64,000 nt of DNA, from contig SVLY01000004.1 of the NCBI GenBank assembly GCA_015067715.1, positions 1-64,000 on the forward strand, written 5' to 3'. Shown in pieces: positions 45,206-55,433 of this stretch; within the stretch, counting starts at the first letter, position 1; every line of letters begins with the position of its first letter. The notes beneath the pieces are model-generated. The model searched no databases, was not told where the DNA came from, and saw only the letters and a list, made by a program, of their open reading frames with translations. The DNA is from Oscillospiraceae bacterium (GTDB lineage: Bacteria > Bacillota > Clostridia > Oscillospirales > QAMX01). A program made the position numbers and the translations under genes.

Positions 45206-47764
45206 TCAAAGGGAACGCGCCTCGGCTTCGGTATAGAAGGCCTCGCGGCAGTAATCCGCCCAGACGATATTCGCGCCCGGAAGCTTTTCATTCACCGCAG
45301 AGACAAGGTATCTGGGGTTCAGCGAACCGCCGGCGGCGTCCTTGAGAACAGCTCTGATAACCAGCATTCCGTTTTCTGCGGCCACGTCAAGAGAGAAGAC
45401 CTGTTCTGAGACGTCCACTGTCTTCATTCCCTTTTTGCTGCGCTTTTCAACCGTAAGCGGTCCGGAAAGCAGAGCCTTGACAGCCTCGGCCATAGCATCG
45501 TCTGCCACATCTTTGGTCTCGCAGACAACGGTGTAACCCGAGGCGAATATATCCGCCACCTTTACCTCTGCGGCATTTCCGGTAATACGGATTCCGACGG
45601 GAAGATACATGTTGGTCTTTTGAATAAGCCCTGCAACGTCACCGTCGAAATCCAGGATCGAAGTGTCCAGGATCTCACAGCGGCTCTCATAGCCAAGGGA
45701 AAGGGGTCTTGCAAGGGATATGTATGGTTTCGGGTTAAAGCCTTCGGAGTGTTTAAGGGGCACTCCGGCGCGCTTAAAGGCCATTGCAAAGGTCTTCATC
45801 AGCTCAAGATGGGAGGTGTACACGCCCTTATCGAACTTTTCAAAACGCAGACGCACGCTGACGGGCTCGCCCTTTTTGACCTCCGGCGCGGTATAGGCAG
45901 GAAGGGGCTTATCCTCGGTTTCAAGAGAGAGCTGGCACTTTCCGCCGAGAAGACGGTTTGCGCCGCATCCGGAGCATCCGCCGGGAGCGTTGCGGCAGTC
46001 AGGAGTGATAACCCCGCGGTAGGCGTCCTTTCTGCTACGTTTGAGGTATGCAACTGTAACGCCGCAGTCGATATGGCTCCAGGGAAGTATCTCGTCCTCT
46101 CCTCTTTCACGGAGGTAGAAGAAAGGATCAAGCCCGGCTTCTTTGATGCATTCGATCCAGGTATCGTATTTGAAATACTCTTCCCAGGAGTCAAAGCGAC
46201 AGCCCTTGTTCCAGGCGGCGTAAACAACGGCGCCGAGCCTTCTGTCGCCACGGGCAAAAATGCCCTCCATCATGGAAGTGTGGGGATCGTGATAGGCGTA
46301 GCTCACAGCGCGGGCCTTGAGCTTGTTTTTAAGAACGGCGATCTTAGCGTACATCTCGTCCGGGGTGCACATTCTTTCCCACTGGAAGGGAGTGAAGGGC
46401 TTTGGGATGAACAGAGAGGTGGAAAGGGCAATGGCAAGCTGTTTTGTCTGGGAGCGGTCCCGGTCACAGGTGCGCCAGAGGTGCACGACGCTGTCCGCCA
46501 TTTCGGCAATGCCTTCGATATCCTCGGGAGTTTCCGTGGGAAGACCCAGCATGAAATAGAGCTTAACTCTGCTCCATCCGCTCTCGAAGAGCACACGGCA
46601 GGCCTCCAGCAGATCCTCCTGGCTGAGGTTCTTGTTTATAACGTCTCTGAGCCTCTGAGAGCCCGCTTCAGGGGCGAAGGTGATGGAGCTCTTGCGGACT
46701 CCGGCAATGCGCTTGGTGAGCTCTGTGGAGAAATTGTCCGCACGGAGAGAGGGCACGGAGAGGTTTATCTTTTCTTTTTCAAGTCTGGGCAAAAGCAGGT
46801 CGCAAAGCTCCGGCAGGGCGGAATAGTCGCTGGTGGAGAGGGAAGAAAGGGCAAGCTCCCCGGCGCCGGAGTGGGCAAGACAGGCAAAGGCCTGATTTGC
46901 AAGGGTCTCCGGCCGCTTCTGGCGGATGGGACGGAAGGTGTGACCTGCCTGGCAGAAGCGGCATCCGCGAACGCATCCCCGGAAAAGCTCAATGCTGTCC
47001 CTGTCCTGAACCACCTCGCCGGAGGCGACGGGAGCGTCAGTCGGGAAATAGGCGCTGTCCAGATCCGCAACGATACGCTTTGTGACCGTTGCGGGAATCC
47101 CGACTTTGGGGGTAAAGGCCGAAATGCGGCCTTCGGAATCGTACTCAACGGTGTAAAGGGAGGGAACGTAAGCTCCGCCGATCTCACAGGCGGCACGGCG
47201 GAGAAACTCTGCCTTGCCCGCGCCCTTCATGTCCCGGTAGAGGGTGATAAGCTCGGGAATCATCTCCTCGCCCTCGCCGATGGAGAAGAGGTCGATAAAG
47301 TCTGCCATGGGCTCGGCGTTGTAGGCGCAGGGACCGCCGGCGATAACGATTGGGTCGTTTTCTCCTCTGTCGCAGGAGCGTACAGGAATTCCGGCAAGGT
47401 CAAGCATCTCAAGCACGTCGGTGTAGCACATCTCGTACTGAAGGGTAAAGGCGACGATGTCGAAATCGGCAAGGCTGTCTCCGCTTTCAAGAGTTCCCAG
47501 CTTTACGCCGTTTTTACGCATCTCGTCGGCCATATCCGGCCAGGGACAGAAGGCTCTCTCGCACCAGCAAAAGTCAAGGCGGTTGAGAACACCCGTGAGT
47601 ATCTTCATGCCCAGGTTGGACATACCGATTTCATATGTATCAGGAAAACAGAACGCCACGCGGACGGGAACGGAGGGGTCCTTCATAACTCCGCCGAATT
47701 CTCCGCCAACGTATCTTCCGGGCTTTTCCACACCGGACAGTATCTTTTTAAGGTCTCTGTTCAT
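45206..47764 (-). CDS. TIGR03960-like radical SAM protein fused to a TIGR03936 (DUF2344) domain
   Basis: ELFRGCVRGCRFCQAGHTFRPIRQKRPETL radical SAM motif; C-terminal VSVRLRFEKFDKGVYTSHLELMKTFAMAFKRAGVPLKHSEGFNPKPYISLARPLSLG. Confidence 0.94.
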   Translation of the reverse strand: MNRDLKKILSGVEKPGRYVGGEFGGVMKDPSVPVRVAFCFPDTYEIGMSNLGMKILTGVLNRLDFCWCERAFCPWPDMADEMRKNGVKLGTLESGDSLADFDIVAFTLQYEMCYTDVLEMLDLAGIPVRSCDRGENDPIVIAGGPCAYNAEPMADFIDLFSIGEGEEMIPELITLYRDMKGAGKAEFLRRAACEIGGAYVPSLYTVEYDSEGRISAFTPKVGIPATVTKRIVADLDSAYFPTDAPVASGEVVQDRDSIELFRGCVRGCRFCQAGHTFRPIRQKRPETLANQAFACLAHSGAGELALSSLSTSDYSALPELCDLLLPRLEKEKINLSVPSLRADNFSTELTKRIAGVRKSSITFAPEAGSQRLRDVINKNLSQEDLLEACRVLFESGWSRVKLYFMLGLPTETPEDIEGIAEMADSVVHLWRTCDRDRSQTKQLAIALSTSLFIPKPFTPFQWERMCTPDEMYAKIAVLKNKLKARAVSYAYHDPHTSMMEGIFARGDRRLGAVVYAAWNKGCRFDSWEEYFKYDTWIECIKEAGLDPFFYLRERGEDEILPWSHIDCGVTVAYLKRSRKDAYRGVITPDCRNAPGGCSGCGANRLLGGKCQLSLETEDKPLPAYTAPEVKKGEPVSVRLRFEKFDKGVYTSHLELMKTFAMAFKRAGVPLKHSEGFNPKPYISLARPLSLGYESRCEILDTSILDFDGDVAGLIQKTNMYLPVGIRITGNAAEVKVADIFASGYTVVCETKDVADDAMAEAVKALLSGPLTVEKRSKKGMKTVDVSEQVFSLDVAAENGMLVIRAVLKDAAGGSLNPRYLVSAVNEKLPGANIVWADYCREAFYTEAEARSL

Positions 47765-47813: not shown

Positions 47814-48410
47814 TCACGGTTTTACTCTCTTTTCAACAGCAAACCTTTTTTTCACACCCCCGAAAGCAAGTGCAAAAGCAAACAAAAGCAGGCTGAAATT
47901 GCCGCTTTTCGCCCCGAGCCAGACTCCGGCTATGATCAGAGAAGCCGAAACCGAGATCTCAAGAACTCTGCAGGCTTTCTCTGCAGCAGAATATCCAAGA
48001 AATGACTTGAAAACGGAATCCGCAATGACTCCCCCGTCCAGACCGGTCAGGGGCAGAAGGTTATATAGCCCCAGCAGGATGTTCGTGCCCGCGAAGGTAA
48101 ACCCAAGCTCGCTCACCGCAGAAAACGCAGTACCAAAACCGAGGAGAAGATTTACCCCAGGCCCGGCCAGAGCGCAGAACCCGTCGCAAAAATAGTCCGT
48201 TATGCCGGGATAACTCACACGCATCTCAAGACCGCGCCAGTTGAAGGTCAGTCTTTCAAGCCTACCGCCAAAGCAAAGTGAGGCAAGATAATGTCCCAGC
48301 TCATGGCAAAAGGCCGCAATAAACGCGCACAGCGCCGTGTCTGCGCCGCAAAAGAGAAGTCCCATTCCGCATAGAAACAAAAACCCCGGTCTTATCTCAA
48401 GCTTCGTCAT
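47814..48410 (-). CDS. M50 family metallopeptidase (site-2-protease type)
   Basis: FCHELGHYLASL zinc motif, LLPLTGLDGG second motif, polytopic. Confidence 0.9.
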   Translation of the reverse strand: MTKLEIRPGFLFLCGMGLLFCGADTALCAFIAAFCHELGHYLASLCFGGRLERLTFNWRGLEMRVSYPGITDYFCDGFCALAGPGVNLLLGFGTAFSAVSELGFTFAGTNILLGLYNLLPLTGLDGGVIADSVFKSFLGYSAAEKACRVLEISVSASLIIAGVWLGAKSGNFSLLLFAFALAFGGVKKRFAVEKRVKP

Positions 48411-48656: not shown

Positions 48657-48685
48657 TTGATATTTCCGCCTGTTCGCGGTATAAT
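48657..48685 (+). promoter_or_regulatory. sigma-A-type promoter
   Basis: TTGATA - 17 nt - TATAAT. Confidence 0.75.
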
Positions 48686-48722
48686 ATACCTGTATAAGCT
48701 TTATGCAAAGGAGCTTTCGGGA

Positions 48723-49499
48723 ATGAAAAAGATCTCAATCTTGATTTTACTTACGGTCATACTCCTGACCTTTTCCGCATGCGGAGATGAGATGGTTTTA
48801 GACTCTGCATCTGACCTTGCCGCTTTAAGAGTCGGCGCTGTCAGCTCCACCGCAGGAGAGACCTACGCCGCCAACTGCGGCTCTGAGGCGGTAAGCGTTT
48901 TTGCCACCATCGAAGAAGCCGTTGAAGCCCTCGTTGCCGGGGAGATAGACTGCATTATAACCGACCTTAACACCGCAAAGGACGTTGCCTCGAACCGGGA
49001 TGACGTTACCAACACCAAGACCAGAATAATCCAGGACACCGACTGGTGCGCCGCAGTTCGCTCTGCGGATTTTGACTCCCTCGCCGTTGCAGAGGTGGTC
49101 TCTGCCGAAGTCCACAAGGAGACCAATTTTTCTAAGCTCTGCCGGGGCTTTATCGAAAACACCGGAGAAGATCGGGACGCTTTCATAACCGCCGACCAGG
49201 TCGGCTCCTCCGGAACCTTCACCCTTGGCACCACCGCCGACTATCCCCCCTACGCCTACCTCACCGAAGACGGCAAAGCGGCCGGAATCTCCGTTGAATA
49301 TGCAAAGCGCTACGCCCAAAAGAGAGATCAGACCCTTGAAATAAAGGTATACGAAAACGACTCGGAGCTGTCCAAAGCTCTGAAGTCCGGAGAGATAGAT
49401 ATGTATTTCGAGCAGCTCCCCGTCCCCGCAGTTCCCGGTATTACCTACTCCACCACCTGTTACACCGTCGAGCTCAGAGTTCTGATTGCGGACAATTAA
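48723..49499 (+). CDS. SBP_bac_3-like lipoprotein with apparently permuted lobe order
   Basis: Lipobox LTFSACGD. N-terminal half LAALRVGAVSSTAGETYA...EAVEALVAGEIDCIITDL (lobe II-like); C-terminal half FTLGTTADYPPYAYLTEDGKAAGISVEYAKR...ALKSGEIDMYFEQL (lobe I-like). Confidence 0.8.
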   Translation: MKKISILILLTVILLTFSACGDEMVLDSASDLAALRVGAVSSTAGETYAANCGSEAVSVFATIEEAVEALVAGEIDCIITDLNTAKDVASNRDDVTNTKTRIIQDTDWCAAVRSADFDSLAVAEVVSAEVHKETNFSKLCRGFIENTGEDRDAFITADQVGSSGTFTLGTTADYPPYAYLTEDGKAAGISVEYAKRYAQKRDQTLEIKVYENDSELSKALKSGEIDMYFEQLPVPAVPGITYSTTCYTVELRVLIADN

Positions 49500-49576
49500 T
49501 TCAGTTTTTATTATAACAAAGCCTTCTCCAACCTCAGGAGAGGGCTTTTAATTTTATTTGCAAACAATAATATCAA

Positions 49577-49605
49577 TTGACAAATAAATACCGGAGCATT
49601 ATAAT
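49577..49605 (+). promoter_or_regulatory. consensus sigma-A promoter of the beta-helix lipoprotein gene
   Basis: TTGACA - 17 nt - TATAAT; GGAGGG RBS at 49626-49631. Confidence 0.85.
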
Positions 49606-49636
49606 TGAAACAAACCAACTCATCGGAGGGATAACA

Positions 49637-51844
49637 ATGAAGCTTAAAGGATTTCTTTCCCTTGCGGCCGGCATATTAACGCTGGCAATGCTGTTTTCAG
49701 CATGTTCTGCCGAACCCATAACGACCGATTCTGCCAAAACGGATATCCCGGAGACCACCTCTGCCCCAGAAGACAAATCGGTTTCTTTGTACGTCGACTG
49801 CAACGCCGCCCCCGGCGGAGACGGCAGTGAAAACGCTCCGTTTTGCAAAATCCCCGAAGCTCAGACAAAAATACGCGAACTTAAATCCACCGAAGGTTTT
49901 TCCGCAGACGGGATCAACGTGATAATCGGAAACGGAGAATACCGCCTCAGCGAGGGGCTTAATTTCACAGCAGAAGACTCCGGCACCAAGGAATGCCCCA
50001 TTACTTATTTCGCCCCGAACGGCGGAGCGATTCTTTCCGGCGGAGTCATTCTCTCTTACACAGATTTCGAGCCCCTGTCCGAAGACGAAAAAACAAGACT
50101 TATTGATGCTTCCGCAAAAGAAAACGTAGTTAAAGTTGACCTTTCAAAATACGGAGTCGACCCCGAAGCCATTGAAACAGTGGAAAATTCCGCAATGGAG
50201 CTTTTCATCGACGGTGACCGCGCAACCCTTGCCCGATATCCCAACGATACGTTCCTGAAAACCTTCCGGGTCATTGACGTTGGCGACACTCACGAAGTCT
50301 ATTCCGATACGACCTTTGACCAGCACGGAATTGCAAGCCTTGTTCCCGATTTTGTCAGCTACGATGTCAATACCCGCGGCGGAACCTTCATGGTGACCAG
50401 CGATATCCGGGACAGAATGCTCCAATGGACTTCCATGGACGGGGTTTATCTGCACGGATATTTCAAATGGAGCTGGTCCGATTCCACCACTCTCATCGGT
50501 GACTTTGATCCCAATAAATCAACAATAACACTTTCTAAATCCATAACCTACGGCGTCTCCTCAAAAGCACCATTCTACTTCCTTAACGTTTACGAAGAGC
50601 TCGACAGTCCCGGCGAATTTTATGTTGACAAAGCCACCTCCACTCTTTATCTTTACAAAACAGCTGATTTCGAATCCTCGGAGCTCATGCTCTCCGCTCT
50701 TTCCGGGGACATTATCACCGCAACGGATCTGTCCCACGTCAGCTTTAAAAATCTCACGCTCTGTGCAACCAGAGGCAACGGTATGACCGTTTCCGGAAAC
50801 GATATTCTGATTGACAGCTGCAAAATTTACAACGTCCGCGGCGGTGCCATAACCGCGGCAGGCAACAATATCACCGTTCAAAACAGCGAGCTTACCAATC
50901 TCGGCGCCTTTGGCATAAACATCTCCGGCGGAGATTCCACAACGCTTACACCCTCCGGAAATCTTGTTTACAACAACCTTATCAACAATTTCGGAGTGAT
51001 CAAAAGAACCTATCAGTCCGCCGTTGCGGCAAGCGGATGCGGCGTGACCGTTTCCCACAACGAAATTTCCGAATCTCCCCATCAGGCCATGACCTGGAGC
51101 GGACCTAACCATGTTATAGAATACAACGAGGTTTACGACGTTTGTCTTGAAACGTCTGATTGCGGCGCATTATACGCAGGCAGAAATTTCATAAGCTACG
51201 GCTGTGTTATAAGATATAATTACATCCACGATGTTGGCTCCGGCACGGCTCTCGCAAACGGTATCTATTGGGATGACGGTCTCAGCGGTCAGACCGCATA
51301 CGGAAATATCATCGCAAACATTACAAACAATGCATTCGCCATCGGCGGCGGCAGAGATAACGTCGTGGAGAACAACCTTATCATAAACACGATAAGAGTT
51401 CCCATTAGCTTCGACGGAAGAACACGTGAAGCACTGCTTGACCCAAACGCATGGTTCACTGAAAATGCAAAAATGGCCGAAGCGATTCCCACGCTCCAAA
51501 ACGAATACTGGAACGATACCTTCCCCACCTACGGTCAGCTCATCCCCTACACCGCCGATTATTCCGGCGACCCTGACGATCCCCTGCTCTCTGCAAACCC
51601 GGCAAACAACATTATCAGAAATAACGTTACCTACCACTACTTTGCCGGTGCCAGAAAACACAGCATAAACGACTACACACTTGAGCATTGCACCGTGGAA
51701 AACAACCCCACCATCAGGATCAACCACGAAGCACTGGATGCCTGGATAACAGGTGACACTTCTATTATCAACGACCCCCGCACTCTTGAAAAATGTCCCG
51801 ACTTCAAACCTCTTCCCATTGACGAAATGGGGCGCGTTGAGTAA
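49637..51844 (+). CDS. right-handed parallel beta-helix repeat lipoprotein
   Basis: Lipobox LFSACSAE; YVDCNAAPGGDGSENAPFCKIPEAQTKIRELK start typical of secreted pectate-lyase-fold proteins; repeated N-rich beta-helix rungs. Confidence 0.88.
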   Translation: MKLKGFLSLAAGILTLAMLFSACSAEPITTDSAKTDIPETTSAPEDKSVSLYVDCNAAPGGDGSENAPFCKIPEAQTKIRELKSTEGFSADGINVIIGNGEYRLSEGLNFTAEDSGTKECPITYFAPNGGAILSGGVILSYTDFEPLSEDEKTRLIDASAKENVVKVDLSKYGVDPEAIETVENSAMELFIDGDRATLARYPNDTFLKTFRVIDVGDTHEVYSDTTFDQHGIASLVPDFVSYDVNTRGGTFMVTSDIRDRMLQWTSMDGVYLHGYFKWSWSDSTTLIGDFDPNKSTITLSKSITYGVSSKAPFYFLNVYEELDSPGEFYVDKATSTLYLYKTADFESSELMLSALSGDIITATDLSHVSFKNLTLCATRGNGMTVSGNDILIDSCKIYNVRGGAITAAGNNITVQNSELTNLGAFGINISGGDSTTLTPSGNLVYNNLINNFGVIKRTYQSAVAASGCGVTVSHNEISESPHQAMTWSGPNHVIEYNEVYDVCLETSDCGALYAGRNFISYGCVIRYNYIHDVGSGTALANGIYWDDGLSGQTAYGNIIANITNNAFAIGGGRDNVVENNLIINTIRVPISFDGRTREALLDPNAWFTENAKMAEAIPTLQNEYWNDTFPTYGQLIPYTADYSGDPDDPLLSANPANNIIRNNVTYHYFAGARKHSINDYTLEHCTVENNPTIRINHEALDAWITGDTSIINDPRTLEKCPDFKPLPIDEMGRVE

Positions 51845-51891: not shown

Positions 51892-52695
51892 TTAAAGGAC
51901 CTTGGAAAGGAAATCTCTGAGTCTGGGGTTTTGGGGATTGCCGAAGAATTCTTCGGGCTTACCCTCTTCGGTAATGCGGCCGTCATCCATGAAGACGATG
52001 CGCGAGCCGACCTCACGGGCAAAGCCCATCTCGTGGGTGACGACAACCATGGTCATACCCTCACGTGCAAGCTCCTTCATGAGGAAGAGGACCTCACCCA
52101 CCATTTCCGGGTCAAGGGCGCTTGTGGGCTCGTCAAAGAGCATAACGTCGGGCTCCATGCACAGGGAGCGGATTATGGCGATACGCTGTTTCTGACCGCC
52201 GGAAAGACGGCTGGGATATTCGTCCCGCTTGTCGTAAAGACCGATGCGGTTCAGAAGCTCAACAGCCTTTGCCTCTGCCTCCTGGGGTGTCTTCAGCTTA
52301 AGCTGAGTGGGGGCAAGAGTGAGGTTCTGCATAACGGTGAGATTGTTGAAAAGGTTAAAGTGCTGGAAGACCATGCCCATCTTCTGCCGGGCAAGCTCGG
52401 TCTTGATATAGTGCTTGTCCTGATATTCTCTTAAAGCGGCTTTAACGGCAGATTTCGGGCCTGCGGAAAATTCGGGATGAAGCGCCGGGTCGGGCTTTGT
52501 GAGAAGCTTGCCCTCAAGCCAGATCTCGCCGGCGTCGGGGGTCTCAAGCAGGTTCATGCAACGCAAAAAGGTGCTCTTGCCGCTTCCGGAAGGGCCGATA
52601 ACCACGACGTTCTCGCCCTTTTTAATATCGCAGGAAACTCCCTTGAGAACAGAAATATCGCCGAAGTTCTTGTAAATATTCTTAACGCTTATCAC
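51892..52695 (-). CDS. polar amino acid ABC transporter ATP-binding protein
   Basis: [53 protein letters not shown]. Confidence 0.96.
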
Positions 52696-53380
52696 TTGCT
52701 CTCAACCTCTTTTCAATTCTCTTAATGGCAAAGGTAAGGGTGTAAACAATGGCAAGATAGAACAGAGCCGCAACCAGCATGGGGGCAAAATAGGTTGCGA
52801 GATTGTTACCGCCGCCAATGACCTGAGCGGCCATATTAAGATCCTTCATGCCGATCATGCTGACGATGGAGGTCTCCTTAATAAGGGCGATAAGCTCGTT
52901 GCCGATGGCGGGAATAACGTTCTTAATGGCCTGGGGAATTACTATCTTCATCATAGTCGTACCCCGGGAAAGACCCAGAGAAAGACCGGCTTCGGTCTGA
53001 CCGATGTCAACGGAGAGAATGCCGGCACGGATGTTTTCCGCAACGTAGGCACCGGAGTTTATGCCAAAGGCAATAATTGCGGTGACTATCTGGGGGAAGC
53101 CCCTTATGGCAAAGACAACGAAGGCCATGATGAAGAGCTGCAAAGCCATGGGCGTGCCGCGGATTATGGTGACGTAGACCTTGCAGATGGCCCTGGGAAT
53201 CATCATCAGCTTGTTCTCGGACCGGGAAAGTGTGATGATGGCAACCAGAGTGCCAAGGAGAAGACCCAAAACAGCGGCACCAACAGAAATGATAAAGGTC
53301 ATTTTCAGACCGTTGAGCATTTCAAAGAGGTATTTCGTGTTGGTGAATATTTCAATTATATTGTCAAAAAACTTCGTCAT
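52682..53380 (-). CDS. polar amino acid ABC transporter permease
   Basis: [62 protein letters not shown]. Confidence 0.96.
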
Positions 53381-53487
53381 TAAAAAAGATCCCCTTACCT
53401 TTTCAGAGGAAACGGGAGCCGCAGATACGACGCGGCTCCCGTCCGTTTATAGGTGGTAATATTCTGTTACGGGTATGTATTTCCGGC

Positions 53488-54351
53488 TTATTCCATGCCG
53501 TAATGCTGCATAACGAGCTTGGTAACAGCGCTTTCGCCGTTCTCGTCCTCAACGAGCATCTCTTCGAGAACTTCGTTGATGGCGGTGAGAAGTTCATCGT
53601 TGCCCTTGGTAACGGCAATGGCGTACTGCTCTTCGGTGGGGAAGTCAGCCTCTTCGCCGCCGTCGTAGTAAAGAGCGGCGCACTGGAGACCGGCGTTCTT
53701 GGAGACGATGTAGGAGGAGGGCAGGTAGTCCAGAACAACGACGTCGAGCTGGTTGGCGTTCATAGCGTCAACTGCCAGCTGACCGTTGGAGAAGCGGACG
53801 ACCTCGGCGCCGGAGCCGTTGAGAGTGCCGGTCCAGCCGTAGTCGGGATCGCTCTCGTTAGCGGCGATCTCGTCGGAAACGTAGATATCGCCGGTGGTGT
53901 CCTGCTGGACGCCGATCTTCTTGCCGGCAAGCTGATCCCAGACAACGTATTCAACGTCACCGTCAACACCGGCGGGCTCAAGAGCGCCTTCGGCAAAGAT
54001 AACGTACTGAACGCTGGTGAAATAGGGAATGGAGAAATCGACCTTTTCAAGGCGGGCTTCGGTGATGGTGATACCGGCGGCGCCGCAGTCGCAAAGGTTG
54101 CCGGCGGCAACGTTGTCGATGATGGTCTTGAATTCGACGTTGTTGAAGACAACTTCCTTGCCCATCTTTTCGCCGACCTTAGCCATAATGTCGACGTCAA
54201 CACCGACGATCTCGCCGTCTTCGTAATACTCGAAGGGGGCAAAGAAAGCGTTGGTCTGAACAATGATCTGATCCTGAGCGCCGCAGCCGGAGAAGGAGAG
54301 AACGCCGAGGAGCATGATCACAGCCATGAGGATAGCAGAAAACTTTTTCAT
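53488..54351 (-). CDS. polar amino acid ABC transporter substrate-binding lipoprotein (canonical SBP_bac_3)
   Basis: Lipobox LSFSGCGA; canonical lobe I to lobe II order with GITITEARLEKVDFSIPYF and LAGKKIGVQQDTTGD. ATG 54351 preferred. Confidence 0.94.
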   Translation of the reverse strand: MKKFSAILMAVIMLLGVLSFSGCGAQDQIIVQTNAFFAPFEYYEDGEIVGVDVDIMAKVGEKMGKEVVFNNVEFKTIIDNVAAGNLCDCGAAGITITEARLEKVDFSIPYFTSVQYVIFAEGALEPAGVDGDVEYVVWDQLAGKKIGVQQDTTGDIYVSDEIAANESDPDYGWTGTLNGSGAEVVRFSNGQLAVDAMNANQLDVVVLDYLPSSYIVSKNAGLQCAALYYDGGEEADFPTEEQYAIAVTKGNDELLTAINEVLEEMLVEDENGESAVTKLVMQHYGME

Positions 54352-54530: not shown

Positions 54531-55433
54531 TTATATAATATTTGCCACGTATCTGACTGCCCCGGGCAGAACCTTTACGTTGACTTCGGCAGGAGCGCCG
54601 CCATAGTCCCCGTCAAGGGTCCACGGGGTGTCTCCGAAGGCCTGCAGTCGAACCTCGGGGCTCTTGAGAGAATAGACACCGAACTCCCGGCGGAGGTCCT
54701 TCTCAACGAAGGCCCGCATTATCAGCTGAAGCTCCGTGAAATTTTTCGGCATTTTAACAAAAACAGTTTCAAAGAGCCCGTCGGAAAGCTCAACCGAAAT
54801 TCCCCCAAGTCCCTTGAATCCGCCGATGGACTTGGAATTCGAGATCATTCCGAAAAGAAAATCCTCTTCAATGACTTCTCCGTTAACGGATATACGCATG
54901 TGCTGGGGCTTTACATCAAGCATGCTCTCAGCTCCGTTGAGAAGATATGCCGCTCTTCCGATAACACTTTTGATGTGCTGAGGAGTTATGTAGGCAACCT
55001 CGGAAAACAGACCGAATGCCGCGGTATAGGTGAAGCATTTTCCGTTGAAGGTTCCCGCATCGCAGAGCACAGGCTCCCCTTCCGCGGCAAACTCAGCGGC
55101 TTTTTTGATGTTGGAGGAAAGGCCGAGAGTGTCCGCAAAGTCGTTTGTGGTTCCGCAGGGAATATAGCCGATGGGGGTCGAAGCTCCGGAGGCAACAACT
55201 CCATTGACAACCTCGCTGAGAGTGCCGTCTCCCCCGGAGCAGATAAGCCTGTCGTACTCACCGCAGTCACGGGCAAAACGCTCGGCATCGGAAGAAGAGA
55301 GCGTAACCCTCAGGGTGATATCGTAGCCTGCGCGCTGGAAGGTCTCGCAGACCTTAAGCAGATGCATTCTGATCGCGGACTTTCCCGCAACAGGATTTAC
55401 AATGAACAGAAGTTTTTTCCCGTTCTCGCTCAT
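54531..55433 (-). CDS. diacylglycerol/lipid kinase family protein (YegS/BmrU-like)
   Basis: LLFIVNPVAGKSAIR, ICSGGDGTLSEVVNGVV, IPCGTTNDFADTLG. Confidence 0.95.
   Translation of the reverse strand: MSENGKKLLFIVNPVAGKSAIRMHLLKVCETFQRAGYDITLRVTLSSSDAERFARDCGEYDRLICSGGDGTLSEVVNGVVASGASTPIGYIPCGTTNDFADTLGLSSNIKKAAEFAAEGEPVLCDAGTFNGKCFTYTAAFGLFSEVAYITPQHIKSVIGRAAYLLNGAESMLDVKPQHMRISVNGEVIEEDFLFGMISNSKSIGGFKGLGGISVELSDGLFETVFVKMPKNFTELQLIMRAFVEKDLRREFGVYSLKSPEVRLQAFGDTPWTLDGDYGGAPAEVNVKVLPGAVRYVANII

Follow-up and report, generated by a model that had tools for sequence, protein, structure and literature searches.

A circularly permuted SBP_bac_3 lipoprotein without a transporter in an Oscillospiraceae bacterium, and its relatives in ABC importer operons

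The gene at 48723-49499 of contig SVLY01000004.1 from an Oscillospiraceae bacterium, of which a stretch of 64,000 nucleotides was analysed (the window), encodes a circularly permuted substrate-binding protein (SBP) of the type II SBP_bac_3 family, cut at the hinge. Judged by sequence, it belongs to a permuted branch of the SBP_bac_3 superfamily. It is very probably a lipoprotein that descends from a family of importer components and has itself lost both its transporter and the arginine that clamps the ligand; it is likely no longer part of an importer and likely has a changed ligand.

The gene and its parts

The protein, its parts and the expression signals around its gene are as follows.

48657-48685, plus strand: promoter-like site TTGATA-17-TATAAT, 11/12 (consensus match only)
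48707-48713, plus strand: ribosome-binding site AAAGGAG, 9 nt 5' of the ATG (sequence)
48723-49499, plus strand: orphan circularly permuted SBP_bac_3 lipoprotein, 258 aa (HMM, Pfam, phmmer)
48723-48779, plus strand: lipoprotein signal peptide, residues 1-19, with lipobox MKKISILILLTVILLTFSA then Cys20 (read by eye)
48798-49157, plus strand: first half, equal to canonical lobe 2 and the C-terminal helices, residues 26-145 (canonical HMM 135-254, phmmer)
49158-49193, plus strand: new linker from the canonical C-terminus to the canonical N-terminus, residues 146-157 (gap between HMM segments; family alignment)
49194-49496, plus strand: second half, equal to canonical lobe 1, residues 158-258 (HMM 32-101 for 158-229, family alignment for the rest)
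49428-49433, plus strand: two-residue gap deleting the alpha-carboxylate-binding arginine, the LAO Arg77 equivalent (family alignment)
49518-49548, plus strand: intrinsic-terminator-like hairpin of 12 pairs with a T-rich tail (sequence match)

Signal peptide, lipobox and cysteine, as read by eye, are those of a bacterial lipoprotein. The codon-use score of the gene is 0.19 in frame, compared with -0.41 and -0.23 out of frame. A perfect match to a sigma-70-type promoter (TTGACA-17-TATAAT, 49577-49605, plus strand) stands before the neighbouring beta-helix lipoprotein-like gene (49577-51844).

Permuted order of the two lobes

Three sequence comparisons reverse the canonical order of lobe 1 and lobe 2. 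Pfam SBP_bac_3 (PF00497) matches the protein in two stretches (E 8.4e-13), and this homology to both lobes, at 48.7 bits, exceeds the curated cut-off of 26.4. In a phmmer search against solved structures, residues 163-230 align with residues 9-75 of AncQR (4zv1; whole-chain E 2.5e-10), and residues 27-87 align with residues 110-173 of the same chain, which is a crossed order. An HMM of 256 positions, trained on 12 SBPs of the clade that have the canonical order, places residues 26-145 on its positions 135-254 (39 bits) and residues 158-229 on positions 32-101 (32 bits); for the last 30 residues of the protein, the HMM support comes from the family alignment. The mature protein has the length of one SBP and contains each lobe once, and each canonical position is covered a single time with one breakpoint, as in its colinear homologues.

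The predicted structure is in keeping with this. AlphaFold2, supplied with the mature protein and 47 aligned relatives, returned a model with a pLDDT of 84.3 and a pTM of 0.74, in which strands and helices succeed one another as a chain of lobe 2, C-terminal helices and lobe 1 would require; from the single sequence, the pLDDT was 37. The best Foldseek matches to the model were mostly type II SBPs with sequential TM-scores of 0.30-0.46 and an rmsd mostly of 6-10 Å, low scores that are expected of a permutant. As Foldseek aligns sequentially, its result appears consistent with a permutant and is no proof by itself. A search of a viral library returned nothing useful.

A preliminary description, made from the letters alone, had likened the N-terminal half to the second part of a canonical SBP and the C-terminal half to the first, had proposed a circular permutation at the hinge, and had named structure prediction, HMM coordinates for each half and a search for homologues of the same order as checks. 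Both halves fall where it had put them, in HMM and phmmer alike, and the protein that it used as an internal comparison (53488-54351) has the canonical order in Pfam and in the canonical HMM. The checks agree: two crossed segments cover the mature SBP once, full-length colinear homologues occur in the family, in the order and at most of the named loci described below, and the single-chain model is confident and shows the permuted order of elements. An assembly artefact was rejected, given homologues in many independent assemblies, including one complete genome.

A permuted family in importer operons

Full-length colinear homologues were found in genomes of the same family and order. Scanning the contigs of named genomes with the window protein alone gave no matches because this protein is too diverged; the family alignment retrieved 80 loci. 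By our own classification, 77 of these encode one permuted SBP, either on its own or in fusion with a permease, and the other three are a tandem (L092), a triple canonical fusion (L141) and a frameshift-split gene (L144). At most of the 80 loci, a permease of the BPD_transp_1 type and an ATPase of the GlnQ type come after the permuted SBP. The family to which the window protein belongs (class A) is predicted from sequence to serve ABC importers of the polar-amino-acid type. Its members come from Oscillospiraceae, Lachnospiraceae, other Clostridia and Treponema, and the isolates among these hosts include Ruminococcus sp. FMBCY1 (complete genome), R. bromii YE282, Roseburia hominis An869 and Treponema socranskii. 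Among 300 genomes sampled across the phylum, only two (G448 and G281) gave clear colinear class A matches, at E up to 1e-30, and the class thus has its main occurrence in this part of the tree. Among the NCBIfam and Pfam matches, no model is specific to the permuted form.

Three class A loci (L089, L109 and L121) have neither permease nor ATPase in the flanks retrieved and keep the arginine clamp. At L144 (4465-5976), a permuted SBP-permease fusion extends over two open reading frames, apparently through a frameshift or sequencing error.

Three breakpoint classes can be told apart in canonical HMM numbering. Class A proteins start at about 131-136 and end at about 130-132, the cut lying at the first exit of the chain from lobe 1. 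Class B proteins start at 200-206 and end at 201-205, inside lobe 2. Class C proteins start at 143-144 and end at 133-142, with the linker helix at the C-terminus. At least 36 of 197 sampled genomes of the order carry a permutant (16 of class A, 17 of class B and 3 of class C), a lower bound that counts only proteins read individually. Classes B and C are likewise followed by permease and ATPase. Class B (L148-L160, L035, L039, L041 and L042) is widespread in this taxonomic order and comes with a permease and an ATPase of its own, and class C (L038, L040 and L044), cut just past the linker helix, lies next to class B in the tree.

Origins and probable route of the permutation

For the tree, all sequences were first rotated to canonical order. 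A single clade of all permutants was rejected (p 1.5e-6), and the tests thus speak against one origin of all permutants. A single clade of class B was also rejected (p 8.6e-58; p 5e-4 without its most distant member). For class A, a single clade falls near the limit (p 0.03, rising to p 0.09 when L128 and the orphans are left out), and one origin of this class would be acceptable on these sequences. The lobes may, as far as their sequences tell, recombine between classes, which could inflate the number of permutation events deduced: in the class B protein of L035, lobe 1 has its nearest relative in a class A protein (79%) and lobe 2 in canonical proteins. Permuted and canonical forms can be close relatives. 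In the clearest instance, the class B protein of L126 aligns with the canonical protein of L012 in crossed order, residues 102-280 with 29-213 at 72% identity and residues 35-91 with 216-272 at 53% identity.

Tandem fusions occur naturally. Canonical SBPs form an SBP-SBP-permease fusion at L032 (1039-3330) and also at L067, and a triple SBP-permease fusion at L141 (3397-6273); chains of lobe 2-lobe 1-lobe 2-lobe 1-permease occur at L092 (3673-5898) and L175 (664-2928). Some multi-SBP-permease fusions contain near-identical repeats. The profile of the permuted family runs colinearly across the SBD1-SBD2 junction of GlnPQ (6h30); against single SBPs, it gives crossed matches where alignments were shown and two stretches in most other listed chains. 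Tandem SBP-SBP-permease fusions are plausible intermediates, and tandem duplication followed by trimming appears to be the best-supported route: an SBP would have been duplicated in tandem and the pair would then have shed its first lobe 1 and its last lobe 2, giving rise to the permuted family. The duplication and trimming suggested in the preliminary description gains indirect support from these fusions.

A wider reading holds that permutation of SBP_bac_3 proteins from tandem fusions is recurrent, perhaps ongoing, and that one permuted branch has given up transport and is now a Venus-flytrap lipoprotein whose new ligand is not an amino acid. It takes in the occurrence in Clostridia and Treponema, the tandem SBP-permease fusions and the small number of tolerated breakpoints, and we put it forward only tentatively.

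Loss of the transporter and of the ligand-clamping arginine

Within the window, no permease or ATPase gene adjoins 48723-49499. The nearest ones (51892-53380) lie on the opposite strand and are part of the operon of the canonical SBP. The ATPase of this operon (51892-52695, minus strand) carries some 27 inserted residues behind Walker A in comparison with most relatives (aligned 1-69 and 102-267); the ATPases beside class B SBPs seem longer too. Apart from the orphan, a family search of the genome (92% complete) listed only two SBP_bac_3 proteins, both canonical and each with a permease and an ATPase of its own. The window gene thus lacks the operon partners of a polar amino acid (PAAT) importer that most members of its family have.

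Three genes anchor the locus by synteny.

45206-47764, minus strand: radical SAM/DUF2344 gene, second upstream anchor
47814-48410, minus strand: M50 metalloprotease gene, upstream anchor common to the intact permuted operon of genome G010 (L049)
54531-55433, minus strand: diacylglycerol kinase-like gene, downstream anchor common to the sister orphan of genome G014 (L051)

The divergent radical SAM-M50 pair is the one found beside the complete permuted operon of G010. Downstream, diacylglycerol kinase, DUF3298-like and RNA-methyltransferase-like genes have the same order in the window and beside the G014 orphan, the beta-helix gene and the canonical ABC operon being placed between orphan and kinase block in the window. 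The other flank of the G014 orphan (isomerase, AraC, sulfatase) is that of permuted operons in G006 and G007. This sister orphan comes from another genus, is of intact length and shares about 33% identity with the window protein. The two form one branch in the tree (support 100/98). The branch of the window protein is long (2.56; very diverged), and long-branch attraction could account for the grouping. On the simplest reading of these sequences, permease and ATPase would have been lost once, in the common ancestor of both orphans. The preliminary description was right that the window has no transporter gene next to the SBP; the permutation, however, did not arise here and is inherited from relatives that normally have an adjacent transporter, the absence being a secondary loss alongside that of the ligand-clamping arginine.

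This arginine is the equivalent of Arg77 of LAO, the residue that holds the alpha-carboxylate (LAO numbering is used throughout). It is present in 96/96 other class A rows of the alignment, 19/19 of class B and 3/3 of class C; it is deleted in the window protein and replaced by His in the G014 orphan. The window protein keeps the Asp161 equivalent, which binds the alpha-amino group, as well as Thr at position 120, has Pro for the Thr72 equivalent, and has lost the Thr121 and Asn11 equivalents. The set that makes up an alpha-amino-acid site (Arg77, Ser/Thr72 and Asp161 equivalents) is therefore incomplete. Since L089, L109 and L121 keep the arginine with no transporter nearby, an orphan does not necessarily have a new ligand.

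Proposed function and alternatives

The orphan is very probably a membrane-anchored type II Venus-flytrap protein in which a short new linker joins lobe 2 and the C-terminal helices to lobe 1. Its ancestor would belong to the widespread permuted family serving polar-amino-acid-type importers, and permease, ATPase and the alpha-carboxylate-binding arginine would have been lost on the branch leading to the window and G014 proteins. From its sequence, the orphan probably does not bind ordinary alpha-amino acids but some different ligand, and has probably ceased to work for an importer. It is then most likely kept at the cell surface as a lipoprotein that binds this changed ligand and feeds no amino-acid importer. 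The ligand may be sensed, stored or passed on; the preliminary description had considered a sensory or scavenging role.

It is unlikely that the gene is instead a degenerating relic, whose transporter was lost from the operon and whose SBP drifts without function. The very long branch (2.56), the lost Arg77, Thr121 and Asn11 equivalents, the lack of adjoining partner genes and the absence of the orphan from G001, the sole other sampled member of the genus, would fit such a decay. Against it stand the full-length open frame, the lipobox, the strong promoter match, the terminator, the codon use of a coding gene and the intact-length sister in another genus; together with the ribosome-binding site, most of these argue that the gene is not dead. 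An unselected frame would close over such a time, and both orphans are open. Promoter, ribosome-binding site, terminator and frame all look good, and the gene has thus probably been retained for another role.

Quite improbable is a remaining function in transport with a non-adjacent permease, e.g. that of the canonical operon 2.4 kb downstream (51892-54351). In some importers, several SBPs share one permease, the operon is close, and both the Asp161 equivalent and Thr at position 120 are kept; but this operon has its own SBP and lies on the other strand, the one further SBP_bac_3 protein of the genome likewise has a permease and an ATPase of its own, and the arginine clamp has been lost. A chance junction of two unrelated incomplete SBP fragments that do not form one fold is scarcely credible: the halves do match Pfam and the HMMs separately, but they cover a canonical SBP exactly once with one breakpoint, dozens of colinear homologues stand in operons and conserve binding residues in each of the two lobes, and the single-chain AlphaFold2 model is confident.

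Relation to known binding proteins and significance

Canonical SBP_bac_3/PAAT proteins (PF00497; LAO, HisJ, GlnH, TmArgBP) are homologous to the window protein in both halves and have the same length and lipoprotein anchor; with the permuted relatives, they share the permease-ATPase operon and the binding residues. They differ in the order of the halves; in addition, permease, ATPase and arginine clamp are missing from the window copy. In GlnPQ (6h30), lobe 2 of SBD1 and lobe 1 of SBD2 are colinear with the permuted family and model the proposed intermediate; unlike the permuted family, GlnPQ has two complete canonical SBPs fused to the permease.

The glycine-betaine-binding proteins OpuAC and ProX have the type II fold and, unlike the window family, are quaternary-amine binders outside SBP_bac_3. 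They are related by circular permutation, with less than 24% identity between the permutants (PMC2395249). TpMglB-2 (Tp0684), a proposed 'Type Ic / Cluster Bc' SBP, is a natural circular permutation of an anchored ABC-importer SBP, and its type is reported in treponemes and Gram-positive gut bacteria (PMC4990184), a host range strikingly similar to that of the permuted SBP_bac_3 proteins. It has a type I glucose/galactose-binding fold, belongs to an unrelated family and has a different breakpoint. The window protein matches type II SBP_bac_3; it resembles this type in its working and is not a member of it. Circularly permuted SBPs are therefore already known; for SBP_bac_3, no report of circular permutation was found in the open-access papers searched.

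As a rule, natural circular permutations come to light only when distant structures are compared. In the present case, one family shows canonical forms, permuted forms with three breakpoints and tandem forms together, with at least one permuted/canonical pair 72% identical over the main block, which makes the duplication-and-trimming model directly testable. Sequential HMMs and fold searches fragment or mis-score permuted SBPs. The breakpoints, tested by nature, are available for SBP-based biosensors, and the window orphan is a case in which a permuted binding protein seems no longer to take part in transport.
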